A DNA stretch of 51,279 nucleotides from assembly GCA_029001845.1 (NCBI GenBank), contig JAREWP010000001.1, positions 1-51,279 of the forward strand. Reading direction: 5' to 3'. The position numbers and the translations under genes are program-made. The DNA is from Candidatus Magnetocorallium paracelense. GTDB lineage: Bacteria > Nitrospirota > Thermodesulfovibrionia > Thermodesulfovibrionales > Magnetobacteriaceae. The notes under the pieces were generated by a model. The model was given only the letters and a program-made list of their open reading frames with translations. It did not search any database and was not told the origin of the DNA. Position 1 is the stretch's first letter; every line of letters begins with the position of its first letter. This document shows positions 1,669 through 50,887 of the stretch, in pieces.

Positions 1669-1711
1669 TTGTAGGTCTTTTACCTACAAGAAAATCAGTG
1701 TTTTACCTACA
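1669..1711 (+). promoter_or_regulatory. palindromic operator upstream of the orphan response regulator
   Basis: The 8-base inverted repeat TTGTAGGT (1669-1676) and ACCTACAA (1682-1689) is followed by a third half-site, ACCTACA, at 1705-1711. The right arm and the third site are 23 bp apart. The same arrangement (6-base arms with a 7-base spacer, plus a third half-site 23 bp away on the gene side) occurs at 50846-50887 upstream of the right-end kinase. This is likely a binding site for one shared regulator. No factor can be named. Confidence 0.6.
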
Positions 1712-1869
1712 GACAAAAATATTAATTTCGTGTAATATAGTTTGATGATATTCATAACCTGGCAGGTTGATCTTATCTGTAGTACAATCATGTTATTTAA
1801 TAGTGTTTTGAAGTAATATTTTTTTGTTTCTTGGTTTTGATAAGATAGAAGCAAGGCGCAAGTAAAAAT

Positions 1870-2039: not shown

Positions 2040-2756
2040 ATGTGCGATAATAATGTTGAATATACAATTCAGCGTGATACCATTTTATGTGTAGACGATG
2101 AAAAGAATATCGTTGACAGTTTATATGATACATTTATGGATTATTATCATGTAAAAACAGCTACCGGTGGAAAGGAAGCATTACGCATATTTGAAAAGGA
2201 GAAAATATCGCTGGTTATAACAGACCAGAGAATGCCTGAGATGACAGGAACGGAATTGCTTATGCATATACATGAAATTAAACCTTCCTGTAAAAAGATT
2301 CTGTTAACAGGATATTCAGATATGTATGTAGCTATCGATGCAATAAACAAAGCTTTTGTAGATAAATACATAGTGAAGCCATGGGATGATGAGAAGCTGA
2401 TAAAAGAAGTCAAGGAACTGATTGACAGGTGCAGATTCGATGAGTTCATGATGGAGGCGAGAAAAAGCTTAAGCAAGAAAAAGAGCCGACAGTCCGTTGA
2501 AATAGAGAACAGAGATAAAAGAATTAAATCCATGGCATTGCAAATCGATAAATTAAGGAATGAAAACACTGCATTGAAGAAGGAAGTTTCCGAGCTTCTC
2601 AATAAATTGAATGATACTGTTTCTTGTACTGAAGACACACTGAAGGAACGCGACAAATTAAAAACCGATCTTGAACAAACCCGGAGAAGGCTCGAACAAA
2701 TTCAAAAACAATGGGAAAGATATAAAAATTATCAAATTTTAAATTCGACACATTAG
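2040..2756 (+). CDS. orphan response regulator: receiver plus long coiled coil
   Basis: The receiver domain (about residues 12-130) has the acidic pair in ILCVDDE, phosphoacceptor Asp62 in VITDQRMPEMTG, Thr90 in LLTGYSD and Lys113 in IVKPW, so it should be phosphorylatable. Residues 130-238 are highly charged heptad-like helix (repeated KLRNEN, KKEVSEL, KLKTDLEQ patterns) with no recognisable output domain. The start at ATG 2040 is preferred over TTG 2013 because GAGGG lies six bases upstream. Receivers of this TDQRMPEMTG/KPW type often pair with EINNPL kinases like the broken ones at both window ends, but no intact partner is adjacent. The role is unknown; a phosphorylation-controlled scaffold is an inference. 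Confidence 0.85.
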   Translation: MCDNNVEYTIQRDTILCVDDEKNIVDSLYDTFMDYYHVKTATGGKEALRIFEKEKISLVITDQRMPEMTGTELLMHIHEIKPSCKKILLTGYSDMYVAIDAINKAFVDKYIVKPWDDEKLIKEVKELIDRCRFDEFMMEARKSLSKKKSRQSVEIENRDKRIKSMALQIDKLRNENTALKKEVSELLNKLNDTVSCTEDTLKERDKLKTDLEQTRRRLEQIQKQWERYKNYQILNSTH

Positions 2757-3913: not shown

Positions 3914-5899
3914 TTATGACTTTGAAGAGATAAGAGAGTCGAGATTGTCTCTTATCTCCTCGAATTGATTTAATGTATCAGTGAGAATTTCTATGTCAAA
4001 CAACGATGCCTGAGTTTTTAATGCTTCTCCCCACAAGGCAAGAGGCCTGAAGTTGTGCTTTACACCCAGTTCTCTCATATGCTCTCCGAATGCTTCGATT
4101 TCATTAATGGAAAATGTGGAGTTAATTTCTTCCCACCTGCTCGTTACACTTTTTTGAAGAATATCCGACAGTTCCGAAAAGGTCGAGATGTTTTCGGGCG
4201 CCTTATCCATTGAGAGCCTCTGCTTTTCCACCACTGTATTAAAAGACGCTCTAAAAGAATTCTTGTTTAGTTCGCATGATTCGGGTTTGGTATATCTCAG
4301 GAATTTTGTGAGCTCTTCTATAAGAGTCTCTCTGTTAAGGGGCTTTCTTATAAAACCGTCACAAAGAGTCCTTAATTCATCTTCATCGGTTTTCATGGCA
4401 GAGGCTGTAACAGCAATGATTTTGGTCTTATGGAGTTCACCGTCGTTCTTAATTATTTCGGTCGCCCTGTGTCCATCCATAACAGGCATTTTAATATCCA
4501 TTAAAATAACGTCAGGCAGATATTTTTTTGCCAGCTTAATTGTTTCCAGGCCGTTTTCCGCCTCGATGATAAAAAGCCCGGAGTCGGACAAGTACTCTTT
4601 AATAATGTCTCTGTTAAGTTTTATATCGTCGGCTATAACTATTTTAGCCGCTTCGAATACCATCGTGTCAGGTTTTCGAGTCGGCGTATGTTTTGTTATT
4701 GTCTCTGCCTGATTTGCTTTTTTTACACCACGGATTTTTATCTTAAACTCGCTCCCCTTACCGACATGGCTGGTTAAAGAGATTTCTCCGTTCATTATTT
4801 CCGTGAGCCTTTTGGTGATGGCAAGTCCGAGCCCGGCGCCTCCATATTTGTTTTGATCCTGTCCTGTTTGCTGATAAAAGACGCTGAAGATAGCATCTCT
4901 TTGATCTTCTTTAATGCCGATGCCGGTATCCTTTACTGAAATCTCAAGTTCTATCTCGTTTTCTCCTTCCTCTTTACAAATGACCAATATCTTAACATAG
5001 CCGGTTTCGGTAAATTTGATTGCATTTCCTGTCAAATTCAGAAGTATCTGCCGTAAACGAGTGTTGTCAAGGATAAGGCGCGCAGGCAGTTTTGGATCGA
5101 TATAAAAACTGAAATCCAGCCCTTTGTCCGTTATTGACTTGGAAAAAATCCGTTCGATATCTTTAAGTACTCCATATATATCCACCGGTTTGTATTCCAG
5201 TTCAAGTTTGGATGCTTCTACTTTAGATAGGTCGAGAATATCGTTTATCAGGACCAGAAGCGATTTTCCGCCTGACATGATGGCGGAAAGATATTCTCTA
5301 TGCAGTTTATCGTTTATCTGACCACTCAGTATTTCGGCAAATCCGAGTATTGCATTCATTGGTGTTCGTATCTCATGACTCATGTTGGCAAGAAATTCAC
5401 TTTTCGCCCTGTTTGCCGACTCAGCAGTCTCCTTTGCCTGCTTTAACTGCTTTTCGGTCTCCTTTCTTATTTGAACCTCATCAAGGGCCTTGTCTCTCAT
5501 AATCCTGAATTCCTGAATTCTTTGAGTCAGCTCTGTAACATCGTTAACTGCAAAAAGTGCATGAATCTTTTTTTTATCCGTTGATTGTACAGGATTTACA
5601 ACGGTATGCAGAATACGTAGTTCTCCGTTCCACATGGGGGCCGGGATAATATGGCTGTGAAGCTGTGATGAAAATATTGCAGGAGGGCCGCCTTCAAATA
5701 TCAAATTAATCCTGTTTGCATATTTGGGGTCTTTGAAGTGTTGGAAGTGATTGCTGATATCCCTGCCAATGATATTTTCTCGTTGGAGTCCGGTCCACTC
5801 CTCTATGCAACTGTTCCAAAACAGAACCCTGTAATCGTTTTGCAGGATAAAAATTCCCATTGGTACAAAATCCAGTACTTTGTAATCAGCTTCATTCAT
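3914..5899 (-). CDS. hybrid sensor histidine kinase (PAS-HisKA-HATPase-receiver)
   Basis: A 661-residue soluble protein. The order is a PAS-like sensor (about 1-125), a coiled linker, HisKA with His175 in NMSHEIRTPMN, HATPase with N box (NLTGNAIKF), G1 (DTGIGI) and G2 (GAGLGLAI), then a receiver (about 415-535) with VIADD, LMDIKMPVMDG and FIRKP. A helical C-terminal region of about 120 residues resembles the tails of such hybrids but lacks a clear HPt histidine motif. No membrane segment is seen, so it should sense a cytoplasmic cue. It is the last gene of a minus-strand operon after a response regulator and a CheC phosphatase, 87 bases downstream of the latter. Confidence 0.92.
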   Translation of the reverse strand: MNEADYKVLDFVPMGIFILQNDYRVLFWNSCIEEWTGLQRENIIGRDISNHFQHFKDPKYANRINLIFEGGPPAIFSSQLHSHIIPAPMWNGELRILHTVVNPVQSTDKKKIHALFAVNDVTELTQRIQEFRIMRDKALDEVQIRKETEKQLKQAKETAESANRAKSEFLANMSHEIRTPMNAILGFAEILSGQINDKLHREYLSAIMSGGKSLLVLINDILDLSKVEASKLELEYKPVDIYGVLKDIERIFSKSITDKGLDFSFYIDPKLPARLILDNTRLRQILLNLTGNAIKFTETGYVKILVICKEEGENEIELEISVKDTGIGIKEDQRDAIFSVFYQQTGQDQNKYGGAGLGLAITKRLTEIMNGEISLTSHVGKGSEFKIKIRGVKKANQAETITKHTPTRKPDTMVFEAAKIVIADDIKLNRDIIKEYLSDSGLFIIEAENGLETIKLAKKYLPDVILMDIKMPVMDGHRATEIIKNDGELHKTKIIAVTASAMKTDEDELRTLCDGFIRKPLNRETLIEELTKFLRYTKPESCELNKNSFRASFNTVVEKQRLSMDKAPENISTFSELSDILQKSVTSRWEEINSTFSINEIEAFGEHMRELGVKHNFRPLALWGEALKTQASLFDIEILTDTLNQFEEIRDNLDSLISSKS

Positions 5900-5986
5900 G
5901 ATTGATTTAGAACGGAATTGCGATATTCCGTCGGCCTTCTTGTCATGGGTGCTATGCGTCGATTAATGAAGAAAGAAAATTCAAGT

Positions 5987-6598
5987 TTAGAAAGCCGAAC
6001 CTTCCGGAGCTGAAGAAATGGAGTCTGTTAGTGTGTCGAAGGAACTGTCTTCAAAAAAGAGTAAGATGTCTCCTTCTATCATATTTCGTTCAATAATAAG
6101 ATGGGTGTGAGCCAGCATGACCACCGAATCGGGTAAAGGATTATTCATAGACAGAAGTTTTAAAACAGTATCTTCTAAATACGAAGGCATTGAATAATTG
6201 AGTTGCTTTTCAATTATGTTGCCTATAGAGCCCATTACACCATTAAGTACAATATTTCCGACCTCACTTAAAGCGCCTGTCCTGATAGAGTCCATGTCGC
6301 TATCTTTCGCAGTCTCGCCTACAAGGAGGCAGACAAGGCCGGCAGCGCTGTTGCAGGGAAAAACCAGAGAGGCCGTTCCCGAGAAAGATCCCTGAAAAGG
6401 CATTCGCACAATTGAGAGGTTATCTGAAAGGATTTCGCTTAGCTCTATTTTAAAGTTTTTATATTCGAATATTTTAATTAAAGATACCTGTAATTGAACA
6501 TGAGCACCGAGCATTTCATTTAATAATCCTGCCGCGCGTCCTACGCCGATGTTTATAACCTCCTTTAACGCATTGTTCTTCTGTGGTGTAAGATTCAT
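5987..6598 (-). CDS. CheC-family phosphatase
   Basis: 203 residues with two CheC active-site helices. The first is near the N-terminus (ALKEVINIGVGRAAG) and the second near residue 110 (ALSEVGNIVLNGVMG); each carries the Glu-x-x-Asn pair that in CheC/CheX/FliY dephosphorylates CheY-P. It starts four bases after the upstream response regulator stop, so the two are translationally linked. No chemotaxis operon surrounds it. The likely substrate is the adjacent single-domain regulator, the receiver of the downstream hybrid kinase, or both. Assignment to CheC rather than CheX rests on the two sites. Confidence 0.88.
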   Translation of the reverse strand: MNLTPQKNNALKEVINIGVGRAAGLLNEMLGAHVQLQVSLIKIFEYKNFKIELSEILSDNLSIVRMPFQGSFSGTASLVFPCNSAAGLVCLLVGETAKDSDMDSIRTGALSEVGNIVLNGVMGSIGNIIEKQLNYSMPSYLEDTVLKLLSMNNPLPDSVVMLAHTHLIIERNMIEGDILLFFEDSSFDTLTDSISSAPEGSAF

Positions 6599-6602
6599 AA
6601 TC

Positions 6603-6971
6603 CTAGGCTTCCTCTGCCTTTAAATGCTTTTCAATAACTTCAAGAAGATATTCTTTTTTAGGTGGTTTGTTGATGATCTCGGAAGCACCCAGTTCCAGAC
6701 ATTGTTGACGGGTAGTTGACTGTATATCGGCAGTTACTACGATAACAGGCATTCCCTTTGTCTTATCTCCCAGTGTTTTCAGTACTTCGATACCGTCCAT
6801 TTCAGGCATCAGTAAATCCAGAATCACACAATCCGGCTTTCTTGAGTCGATCAGATTAATTCCTTCCTTGCCGTCAGGGGCTTCTATCGTTTCATATCCT
6901 CCTTCTTTTATTATATTGCCGATATTCATCCGCTGCAGCCATGAATCATCGATAATCAGTACCAGCGCCAT
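6603..6971 (-). CDS. single-domain (CheY-like) response regulator
   Basis: 122 residues, receiver domain only. It shows LIIDD, phosphoacceptor Asp52 in VILDLLMPEMDG, Thr80 in IVVTAD and Lys102 in INKPPK. AAGGAGGAG lies six bases before ATG 6971. As the first gene of an operon with a CheC phosphatase and a hybrid kinase, it probably acts as a diffusible phospho-acceptor or sink whose signal is terminated by CheC. A single TGTAGGT half-site lies about 60 bases upstream, which may be chance. Confidence 0.93.
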   Translation of the reverse strand: MALVLIIDDSWLQRMNIGNIIKEGGYETIEAPDGKEGINLIDSRKPDCVILDLLMPEMDGIEVLKTLGDKTKGMPVIVVTADIQSTTRQQCLELGASEIINKPPKKEYLLEVIEKHLKAEEA

Positions 6972-7166
6972 AGCTCCTCCTTATATAGTAATTAGAGTTC
7001 AGTTTACACTCTTTTTTGCTTGTGTCCCGTAAACCTACATAAAAAAATGAAAATTTCCATGCAATTAAATTATATCAATTGTCTGAACTTTTGGACAATG
7101 TTAAAGATGATGTGAAAAATCCATGACTTTCTGAAAGACAAGGATAAAATGCTTTTTACTGAATAT

Positions 7167-7186
7167 TTACCTTTTGTCAAAGGTAA
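7167..7186. promoter_or_regulatory. perfect palindrome in the divergent promoter region
   Basis: TTACCTTT (7167-7174), four bases, then AAAGGTAA (7179-7186) form a perfect inverted repeat just upstream of a TATAAT at 7190-7195. It lies about 200 bases from the response regulator start on the minus strand and 110 bases before the receiver-kinase start at 7296. It looks like an operator for one or both divergent transcripts, and its presence argues against translation starting at 7149. A second palindrome, ATTGTC/GACAAT, lies around 7078-7099. Confidence 0.45.
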
Positions 7187-7295
7187 TAGTATAATTTGTA
7201 GTATAACTTATTGGTATCACTTAGTACTTTCATGGCAGGGTAAAAGACAGGCGCTGTTTTTGCTCTCTGCTTATTTTCTTCCTGAATCCCCTATT

Positions 7296-8390
7296 ATGGA
7301 GAATAAACAAAAACACAGGATATTAATTGTAGACGACAGGCAGGACAATATAAAAGTTCTGGGCGCGCTGTTAGCCCAAGAGGAATATCTCATACATGCA
7401 GCGCAAAACGGAGTGCAGGCATCGGAGGTTATTAAACATATCACACCCGATTTAATCCTTCTGGATATAATGATGCCTGAAATGGATGGCTACGAACTGT
7501 GCAGGCGTTTAAAAAACGATTCGATGACAAGTGATATTCCTGTCATATTTATTTCTGCGAAAAGTGAAATCGAGGATGAAAAAAGAGGGCTGGAACTTGG
7601 AGCGGCCGACTATATAACAAAACCATTTAGCCATGCGATCGTAAAAGCAAGGGTGAAGACTCAACTTGCTCTTTACGAGCAAAACAGGAGGCTTGTCGAG
7701 CTTAATCGCCTGAAAGACAGATTTTTGGCAATGGCGGCTCATGATTTGAGAAATCCTCTGACTATAATAAAGAGCTTTAGCGAGCTCCTTCTTGGGAGTG
7801 AAGGAAATGCGGAGCTGAATCCCAAACATAAAGACTATATTTCAACAATCAATAATGCGAGTTCAGGATTAATAAGCCTTCTGAATAATCTGCTCGATAT
7901 TACTACAATAGAAAGCGGAAAATTTCATATGGATTTCAAAAAGGGAGACATTGAACCTTTCATTAGAGAAAGGATAGAGATCAACAGATTGAACGCCAAC
8001 AAAAAAAACATTGTAATAAATGAAGAACTCTTTAATGTGCCTGACTTGTTTTTTGACAGAGATAGAATTAATCAGGTTTTAGATAATCTTTTAAGTAATG
8101 CAATTAAATTTTCCCCAAAGGGATCGACTGTTCATGTCTTTTTATATAATAAAGGCAGGAAGGTATTTGTAAATGTTCGTGATGAAGGCCCGGGGATATC
8201 AGAGGAAAACCAACCAAAACTGTTCGGGGAATTCCAGAAGGTCGGCACAAAAACAACGGGCGGTGAAAAAAGCACCGGTCTTGGTTTATCGATAGTAAAA
8301 AAAATTATTGAAATGCACAAAGGGGAGATAAATGTAGTAAGCACTCCCGGAGCGGGGGCGGAATTCATCTTTTCCCTGCCATTGTCCTGA
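7296..8390 (+). CDS. receiver-histidine kinase fusion
   Basis: 364 residues from ATG 7296. An N-terminal receiver (about 8-125) has ILIVDD, Asp57 in LILLDIMMPEMDG, Ser in FISAKS and Lys109 in ITKPF. HisKA follows with His149 in AAHDLRNPL, then HATPase with N box (DNLLSNAIKF), G1 (DEGPGI) and G2 (STGLGLSI). It has no membrane segment, so its input is probably phosphorylation of the receiver by another kinase. The frame is open back to 7149, but those 49 residues do not look like part of the domain and overlap promoter-like DNA. It is divergent from the regulator-CheC-kinase operon, a plausible partner system. Confidence 0.9.
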   Translation: MENKQKHRILIVDDRQDNIKVLGALLAQEEYLIHAAQNGVQASEVIKHITPDLILLDIMMPEMDGYELCRRLKNDSMTSDIPVIFISAKSEIEDEKRGLELGAADYITKPFSHAIVKARVKTQLALYEQNRRLVELNRLKDRFLAMAAHDLRNPLTIIKSFSELLLGSEGNAELNPKHKDYISTINNASSGLISLLNNLLDITTIESGKFHMDFKKGDIEPFIRERIEINRLNANKKNIVINEELFNVPDLFFDRDRINQVLDNLLSNAIKFSPKGSTVHVFLYNKGRKVFVNVRDEGPGISEENQPKLFGEFQKVGTKTTGGEKSTGLGLSIVKKIIEMHKGEINVVSTPGAGAEFIFSLPLS

Positions 8391-9967: not shown

Positions 9968-10175
9968 TTTTTTACCTCTTGTTTTTTTAATATTACATAC
10001 TCGTTTTCTGTCAGCCCGTGAATATGAAGAGTTGATTATATAGTTTACTCTATTTTTTGTTTGAAAATGTAGTAATAAATAAGTAATAATATGAAAATAC
10101 ATATAGTTCAACGAAGAAATACGTTTTACTGCTTATTTGTCAGAAAAAAATGAATACTTTCGAGAAAGGGAGCTT

Positions 10176-10907
10176 ATGGATGATTTTAGTGTGCTTATAA
10201 TCGACGATTCTTCAGAGATGAGAGATTTTTTAAAGGGAGGTCTCTACGACAGCTCCTCGAATATTGAAATCCATGAGGCGGCCAATACGGAGAATGCTCA
10301 TGAAAGAATAAACGAATTATTTTACGATCTCGTGATTTGCAGATGCGGCACCTGTGATATTGACAGCAACGATTTAATGAAGTTCATAAGAACTCATCCT
10401 ACAAAAAACGATACGCCTGTAATTTTAATCGGCAGCAGAGAAAATAGAAGCAGTATCAGGAAAGGGTTGCGTTACGGTGCTTTGGGATATTTAATTGAAC
10501 CGATAAGCATAGAAAGATTGATTCGAAAGATACTTGTTGTTACTGACAGGTTTAACAGGAGAATACATGAGCGAGTGGATGCCGGTAATCATATCGTATT
10601 ACATTACAACTCTCGGTCCGCTACAGGCGAGCTCATCGATATCAGTCTTGGAGGTCTGTCAGGTCTTATTGAGTGCGATAACGAGTATCCCGGTATTTTA
10701 GGTGAAGTCTCTGTCGATGTTGAAACAGAAGACAGTGGGGAGTGTATATCATTGGATGGTGTGATTTACAGACTCGAGGTTTCACGAAGGTTTAATAAAT
10801 CAAACTATCTGAAATTGTCGGTAAAATTCGATGAAATCGATTTTGAGAATGAAGAGGAACTGACAGAACTGATGTCCTTTTTAAAGAGTCAGCGTTTGGA
10901 TATATAG
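10176..10907 (+). CDS. degenerate receiver fused to a PilZ domain
   Basis: 243 residues. Residues 5-122 have a receiver fold pattern with LIIDDS, but the phosphoacceptor position in the DLVICRCG strand is Arg56, and the conserved Lys of the KP motif is Glu108. It is therefore probably not phosphorylated. Residues 128-240 are a PilZ domain with RRIHER and DISLGGLSG, matching the RxxxR and DxSxxG cyclic-di-GMP-binding motifs. The likely role is a c-di-GMP effector whose pseudo-receiver mediates docking. ATG 10176 with GGGAG upstream is chosen over TTG 10137. The target process cannot be inferred from neighbours. Confidence 0.85.
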   Translation: MDDFSVLIIDDSSEMRDFLKGGLYDSSSNIEIHEAANTENAHERINELFYDLVICRCGTCDIDSNDLMKFIRTHPTKNDTPVILIGSRENRSSIRKGLRYGALGYLIEPISIERLIRKILVVTDRFNRRIHERVDAGNHIVLHYNSRSATGELIDISLGGLSGLIECDNEYPGILGEVSVDVETEDSGECISLDGVIYRLEVSRRFNKSNYLKLSVKFDEIDFENEEELTELMSFLKSQRLDI

Positions 10908-50764: not shown

Positions 50765-50845
50765 TTAATAGTTTAGACACAGCCCCCTCCAATGTTTCGT
50801 TCGATTTGTTTTATTATCATTGTAACAGAAATATCCAAAAAAGTA

Positions 50846-50887
50846 TGTAGGTAAAACACTGATTTTTCTGTAGGAATAATACCTACA
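50846..50887 (-). promoter_or_regulatory. palindromic operator upstream of the kinase remnant
   Basis: TGTAGGT (50846-50852), then TGTAGG (50869-50874), exactly 23 bp apart, then CCTACA (50882-50887) forming an inverted pair with a 7-base spacer. Relative to the downstream gene, order and orientation equal those at 1669-1711. Between 50888 and 51044 I see nothing else except a repeat fragment at 51009-51026. Confidence 0.6.

Follow-up and report, generated by a model that had tools for sequence, protein, structure and literature searches.

Two sets of three half-sites lie 49 kb apart in the window (the whole 51,279-nucleotide stretch of Candidatus Magnetocorallium paracelense that was analysed), one upstream of a receiver gene (site wA) and one upstream of a kinase remnant (site wB). 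Do they belong to a common regulon, and if so, what might act on them? The window is the entire contig C23, one of the 103 contigs that make up the 6.0 Mb genome. Judged from sequence, the operator is a real regulatory module and belongs with no fewer than 16 other promoters to one regulon. The reading that we favor, with a probability of about two-thirds, is that these are sigma-70-type promoters of a 17-member regulon served by a LuxR-HTH activator, for which a GacA-like regulator encoded on contig C1 would be the likeliest binder.

Both window sites match TGTAGG-N17-TGTAGG-N7-CCTACA with 0 mismatches, wA at 1670-1711 on the minus strand and wB at 50846-50887 on the plus strand, and in both the half-site is on the gene side and the palindrome on the far side. 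At wA, the half-site is 23 bp from the right arm of the palindrome. Two composites in the window compare with 0.00 expected, and 0 of 100 shuffles reached 2. The palindrome alone, with up to 2 mismatches, occurs at 3 places in the window (0.92 expected) and is perfect only at wA and wB. Thus, the shared geometry and orientation reported in a preliminary description hold, as do its gene assignments (Table 1). The first site was correctly located except for its start, which is 1670 rather than 1669. The operators, described as identical, are alike, but they differ in their palindrome centers (CTTTT versus ATTAT) and in that wB reads TCCTACA where ACCTACA otherwise stands.

In NCBIfam, the wA gene product is matched best by the NosR-family c-di-GMP phosphodiesterase response regulator, below the cut-off of that family (residues 15-208 on positions 1-192 of a 422-position profile). 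A unit resembling CTTTTTATCTAATCATATA occurs in tandem copies at 1889-1938, in the leader of this gene. In the wB gene, HisKA runs straight into a short kinase tail and no ATPase domain was detected; it looks like the remnant of an internal deletion that retained a full promoter module.

Table 1. Features of the two window sites, and genes that follow modules on other contigs
Feature	Position	Strand	Basis or remark
wA palindrome TGTAGGTCTTTTACCTACA, upstream, presumed high-affinity dimer site	1670..1688	+	pattern scan
wA promoter-proximal site AGAAAATCAGTGTTTTACCTACA	1689..1711	+	one good half-site, CCTACA 1706-1711
wA putative -10 box TATAGT	1736..1741	+	24 bp past half-site (22 in 13/17 modules)
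wA gene: receiver domain and coiled coil, 238 aa, ATG 2040	2040..2756	+	domain search
wB palindrome TGTAGGTATTATTCCTACA (minus-strand reading)	50869..50887	-	pattern scan
wB promoter-proximal site	50846..50868	-	half-site CCTACA at 50851-50846
wB putative -10 box TACAAT	50819..50824	-	21 bp past half-site
wB gene: kinase remnant, HisKA (AHEINNPL), 120 aa	50357..50719	-	domain search
KaiB then KaiC	C16		Pfam
Two rhodanese proteins	C28		Pfam
GAF-GGDEF-EAL	C34		Pfam
PilZ-GAF-kinase then hybrid kinase	C58		Pfam
GAF-GGDEF then EAL; divergent: TonB plug protein	C63		Pfam
GAF-MshEN-pilus-type ATPase	C64		Pfam
153-aa protein without match; PAS hybrid kinase	C66		Pfam
Epimerase then PKS	C100		Pfam
Glycosyltransferase	C101		Pfam
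DnaJ-domain protein	C2		Pfam

The palindrome TGTAGGTNNNNNACCTACA is present 20 times in the genome, and its reversed pattern 0 times. With the search relaxed, 22 places matched exactly and 5 with one mismatch, against 10 in all for the reversed pattern. Every genome this large has many single half-sites, but recurrence of a heptamer by chance is refuted by the window expectation of 0.00 and by the 20 palindromes set against none reversed; its probability is next to nil. All 22 exact places were read. They comprise 17 promoter modules, distributed over 13 contigs, a lone palindrome (C75:92136), a probable chance site (C32:8405) and 3 extra units that belong to arrays at C55 and C101. The C32 site, which lacks T/A flanks and a third half-site, and the C75 palindrome, which lacks a third half-site, were dropped before counts were made, the latter being kept solely in the intergenic count given below. 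The full composite was found on 9 contigs and its reversed pattern on none. Because the third half-site varies (CCTACA in 9 modules, CCGACA in 7 and CCACA in 1), the pattern as originally proposed misses some of the modules. A profile made from sequence alone picks up all 17 modules at E values of 1.7e-19 to 1.3e-12; what matches less well is fragments of those sites, and the next other match is at E 0.1. As the profile was built from these same 17 sites, it shows the gap below them rather than an independent discovery. A search of PMC returned no relevant literature on the motif or the regulon.

All 17 modules contain TGTAGGTnnnnnACCTACA, with one letter off in wB. Reading toward the gene, modules of the main class consist of TGTAGGTnnnnnACCTACA, AAAAAATCAGCATTTTACC[T/G]ACA, TAYTTTTT, a variable stretch and TATAAT. 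The step from the right arm of the palindrome to the last half-site is 22-25 bp overall and 23 bp in the main class; it is 23-25 bp in 15/17 modules and 22 bp at C64 and C100 (loci L035 and L038). The second unit, too, is a palindrome at C13, C55 and C101, where it lies 24-25 bp on, and longer arrays were identified at C34 (3 units) and C101 (4 units). Also conserved, at 1693-1699 in the window and at the same place throughout the main class, is the non-consensus sequence AATCAGC/T, which forms the left half of the proximal site and where another protein or the polymerase alpha subunit may make contact.

A -10 box (at least 5/6 match) is located exactly 22 bp past the last half-site in 13/17 modules, compared with a shuffled mean of 0.54 (0/5000 shuffles), and within 21-23 bp in 15/17. 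The distance deviates from 22 bp at kaiBC (16 bp), wA and wB. A -35 box is lacking: the best match averages 1.94/6 versus 3.04 in shuffled sequence, and 0/2000 shuffles were as low. An extended -10 TG was read by eye from the promoter table in 7/17. With the -10 box placed at -12 to -7, spacing arithmetic puts the last half-site at approximately -40 to -35.

All 18 palindromes considered (those of the 17 modules and that of C75) fall outside ORFs of at least 100 aa, although such ORFs cover 73.5% of the loci. The modules are therefore not repeats scattered without regard to gene starts, and the proposal of a shared regulon is well supported, with all 17 modules intergenic and most at a fixed distance from a -10 box. 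In 14/17 cases the next same-strand ORF (at least 60 aa) starts 94-409 bp past the module; it starts at 509 bp at C2:65851 and 779 bp at C55, and there is none at C2:78146. The leaders are long. Scanning 11 of the 15 loci around the sites at the Rfam gathering score, we found no known RNA family or riboswitch in the leaders apart from a tmRNA end.

The palindrome is absent from 18/18 other family members and from 393/394 other genomes sampled from the phylum. The sole match in the phylum sample, in G259, was rejected as unrelated; it is the center of a longer inverted repeat. A looser pattern, TGTARGN{5,8}CYTACA, is about as frequent in family relatives as its reversed control. Among the genomes compared, the module is restricted to this one; as no other member of the genus is included, it may be genus-wide or species-wide. 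KaiB homologues occur in 7/18 relatives at 51% identity or less, and were not used for a phylogenetic footprint because of this low identity. In a contig collection of other genomes, there were 3 matches. L046, from a gut gammaproteobacterial MAG, has a series of inverted repeats similar to TGTAGGTG..CACCTACA at 4975-5146. A single look-alike in a Dehalococcoidia MAG (L048, 5735-5776; TCAG spacer, profile E 2.8e-7) has no evident -10 box at 22 bp. In L047, a Desulfobacteraceae MAG, a gene for a LuxR-HTH response regulator ends 5 bp before the match begins, and the recognition helix of its product is similar to that of the C1 regulator (KTIGTYR versus KTISTYR), in line with a LuxR-HTH binder. 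No -10 box was evident by eye at 22 bp, and the L047 match may be due to chance. Ten further profile matches in the L047 genome (E 0.001-0.66) were taken as noise after one was read.

The presence of the module in one genome only raises the question of whether it is a small mobile or repeat element (a promoter cassette, or REP/MITE-like) spread by copying and without function as a regulon. Sites with no need of a common spacer have TCAGCATTTTACC in almost the same form, and C13 and C55 are alike over 177 bp at 93%, as copying would predict. In most module pairs, however, likeness ends at the promoter core, and both the palindrome centers and the stretch that precedes the -10 box vary. In addition, all modules are in promoter position, and neither a pattern search of viral contigs nor a distant blastn of one module against plasmids and phages gave a match. 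We regard such an element as quite improbable.

The first same-strand gene is signaling-related for 7/17 modules (C34, C58, C63 leftward, C64, C66 leftward, wA and wB). As background we sampled the initial 10 kb of each of 16 contigs, which gave 113 ORFs, 4 of them with a receiver domain. Because only 25 families were listed, an upper estimate of 8/113 signaling genes was adopted, giving P ~ 9e-5. Relative to the window's own ORFs (7/30 scanned), the enrichment is not significant, and two targets are paralogues. Enrichment of signaling functions among first genes is likely, not proven. Besides the KaiB gene under a module, four further KaiB-like matches lie on one contig (G000:C74:119048-152347).

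The link drawn previously between EINNPL kinases and the coiled-coil receiver was not sustained. EINNPL occurs in the wB remnant alone among 10 proteins checked; it is missing from 5 other regulon kinases or neighbors, two of which have HDFNN. Within the window, the composite is absent at the other kinase and receiver genes (313-867, 3914-5899, 6603-6971, 7149-8390 and 10137-10907). The regulon is wider than kinases and a receiver, extending to kaiBC, GGDEF/EAL, PilZ-kinase, pilus-type ATPase, rhodanese and further genes.

From the fixed -10 distance, the missing -35 box, the ladder of dimer sites reaching -35 (the geometry of BvgA at Pfha) and the half-site resembling that of the GacA box, we infer an activator of the NarL/FixJ class. 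A dimer of this LuxR-HTH response regulator would occupy the perfect palindrome, and a second dimer would adjoin it on a degenerate site with one good half-site, mostly 23-25 bp downstream. Abutting the missing -35 region, the second dimer would aid RNA polymerase in opening the -10 box about 22 bp on, making the sigma-70-type promoter dependent on the activator. The 17 promoters would then form one regulon of cyclic-di-GMP and two-component signaling, kaiBC, pilus-type ATPase and polysaccharide genes. Probably, one activator turns on signaling, clock, attachment and polysaccharide genes together. The model has weak points: wA, wB and kaiBC depart from the 22-bp rule, and it does not predict AATCAGC in the main class.

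The same module could instead bind a repressor (TetR, MarR, Rrf2 or similar) that keeps RNA polymerase off the -35 region. The proximal half-site does overlap the place of a -35 box, and a palindrome without mismatches is the kind of site that many dimeric repressors could use. Yet a -35 match worse than in shuffled sequence leaves little to hold back, even though 7/17 promoters have the extended -10 TG, and tandem dimers at a regular step toward -35 resemble activator arrays. Repression is thus unlikely.

Returning to the activator, five proteins with a GerE domain are encoded in the genome. The likeliest candidate for the binder is the GacA-like response regulator G000:C1:66130-66786. A HisKA_3 kinase gene is located just upstream. 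The best NCBIfam match of the regulator is UvrY/SirA/GacA, at 180.9 bits (below the cut-off of 280), and the closest solved structures are VraR and NarL. No module was found near its own gene. Family members have homologues with up to 53% identity and lack the motif; the homologue in G002 (L120) even has the same KTISTYR helix. Because these relatives have the homologue without the motif, either they recognize DNA differently or some other protein binds the module.

The module at C2:78146 has no gene downstream. Its predicted transcript (region G000:C2:77490-78088; L026 ~5490-6088, minus strand) contains 7 ANGGA in 350 nt, compared with 1.37 in shuffled sequence, and long hairpins; it has no Rfam match at the gathering score. 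This region ranks first for ANGGA among 1040 intergenic 200-nt windows; neighboring windows on the other strand match its score, and several of the GGA lie in stems. One CsrA gene was identified in the genome (C50:37877). As a lead only, the transcript is possibly a CsrA-binding RNA. A more specific scenario is a master regulon assembled within one genus: a uniform 75-bp operator-promoter module that other family members lack would have come to stand before no fewer than 17 loci, bringing kaiBC, cyclic-di-GMP enzymes, a pilus-type ATPase, kinases and polysaccharide genes under the GacA-like regulator, with the GGA-rich C2 RNA serving as a CsrA sponge. We consider this improbable. If true, it would be a Gac/Rsm-type switch that has direct protein-coding targets too.

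With these results, a hunch about two sites becomes a defined regulon, whose promoter grammar can be tested and for which a few candidate binders are named. Under the activator model, one switch would govern attachment genes and cyclic-di-GMP turnover together with a kaiBC pair. As the regulon occurs in one genome and in none of the 18 other family members, its origin is open to study.

Several known systems offer comparisons. The EvgA box has the half-site CYTACA, like the half-site here, but its half-sites face inward, unlike those here. A second comparison is with GacA/UvrY, for which the box is TGTAAGN6CTTACA (PMC3171408). Shared features are the outward-facing TGTARG...CYTACA palindrome, with half-sites one base apart (TGTAAG versus TGTAGG), the GacA-like candidate and the presence of a CsrA gene. 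Differences from that box are the length of 19 bp, the TGTAGG/CCTACA arms and the N7 spacer; the second site, the placement against the promoter and the mostly protein-coding targets also set the present system apart (PMC3171408). Compared with a GacA/UvrY regulon proper, the box is not matched and the C1 regulator falls short of the GacA cut-off (180.9 bits versus 280).

The third comparison is with BvgA at Pfha, where a strong inverted site lies upstream and dimers follow at 22-bp intervals down to one that abuts -35 (PMC7250471). The likeness is in the upstream inverted-repeat site and in the regular ladder of further dimer sites to -35 (PMC7250471). BvgA-like traits found here are the upstream inverted repeat, the regular step and a -10 box at fixed distance without a -35 box. 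Relative to Pfha, the step here is mostly 23-25 bp rather than 22, the half-site is TGTAGGT, a conserved AATCAGC replaces the second half-site, and the arrangement is repeated in 17 near-uniform modules (PMC7250471).
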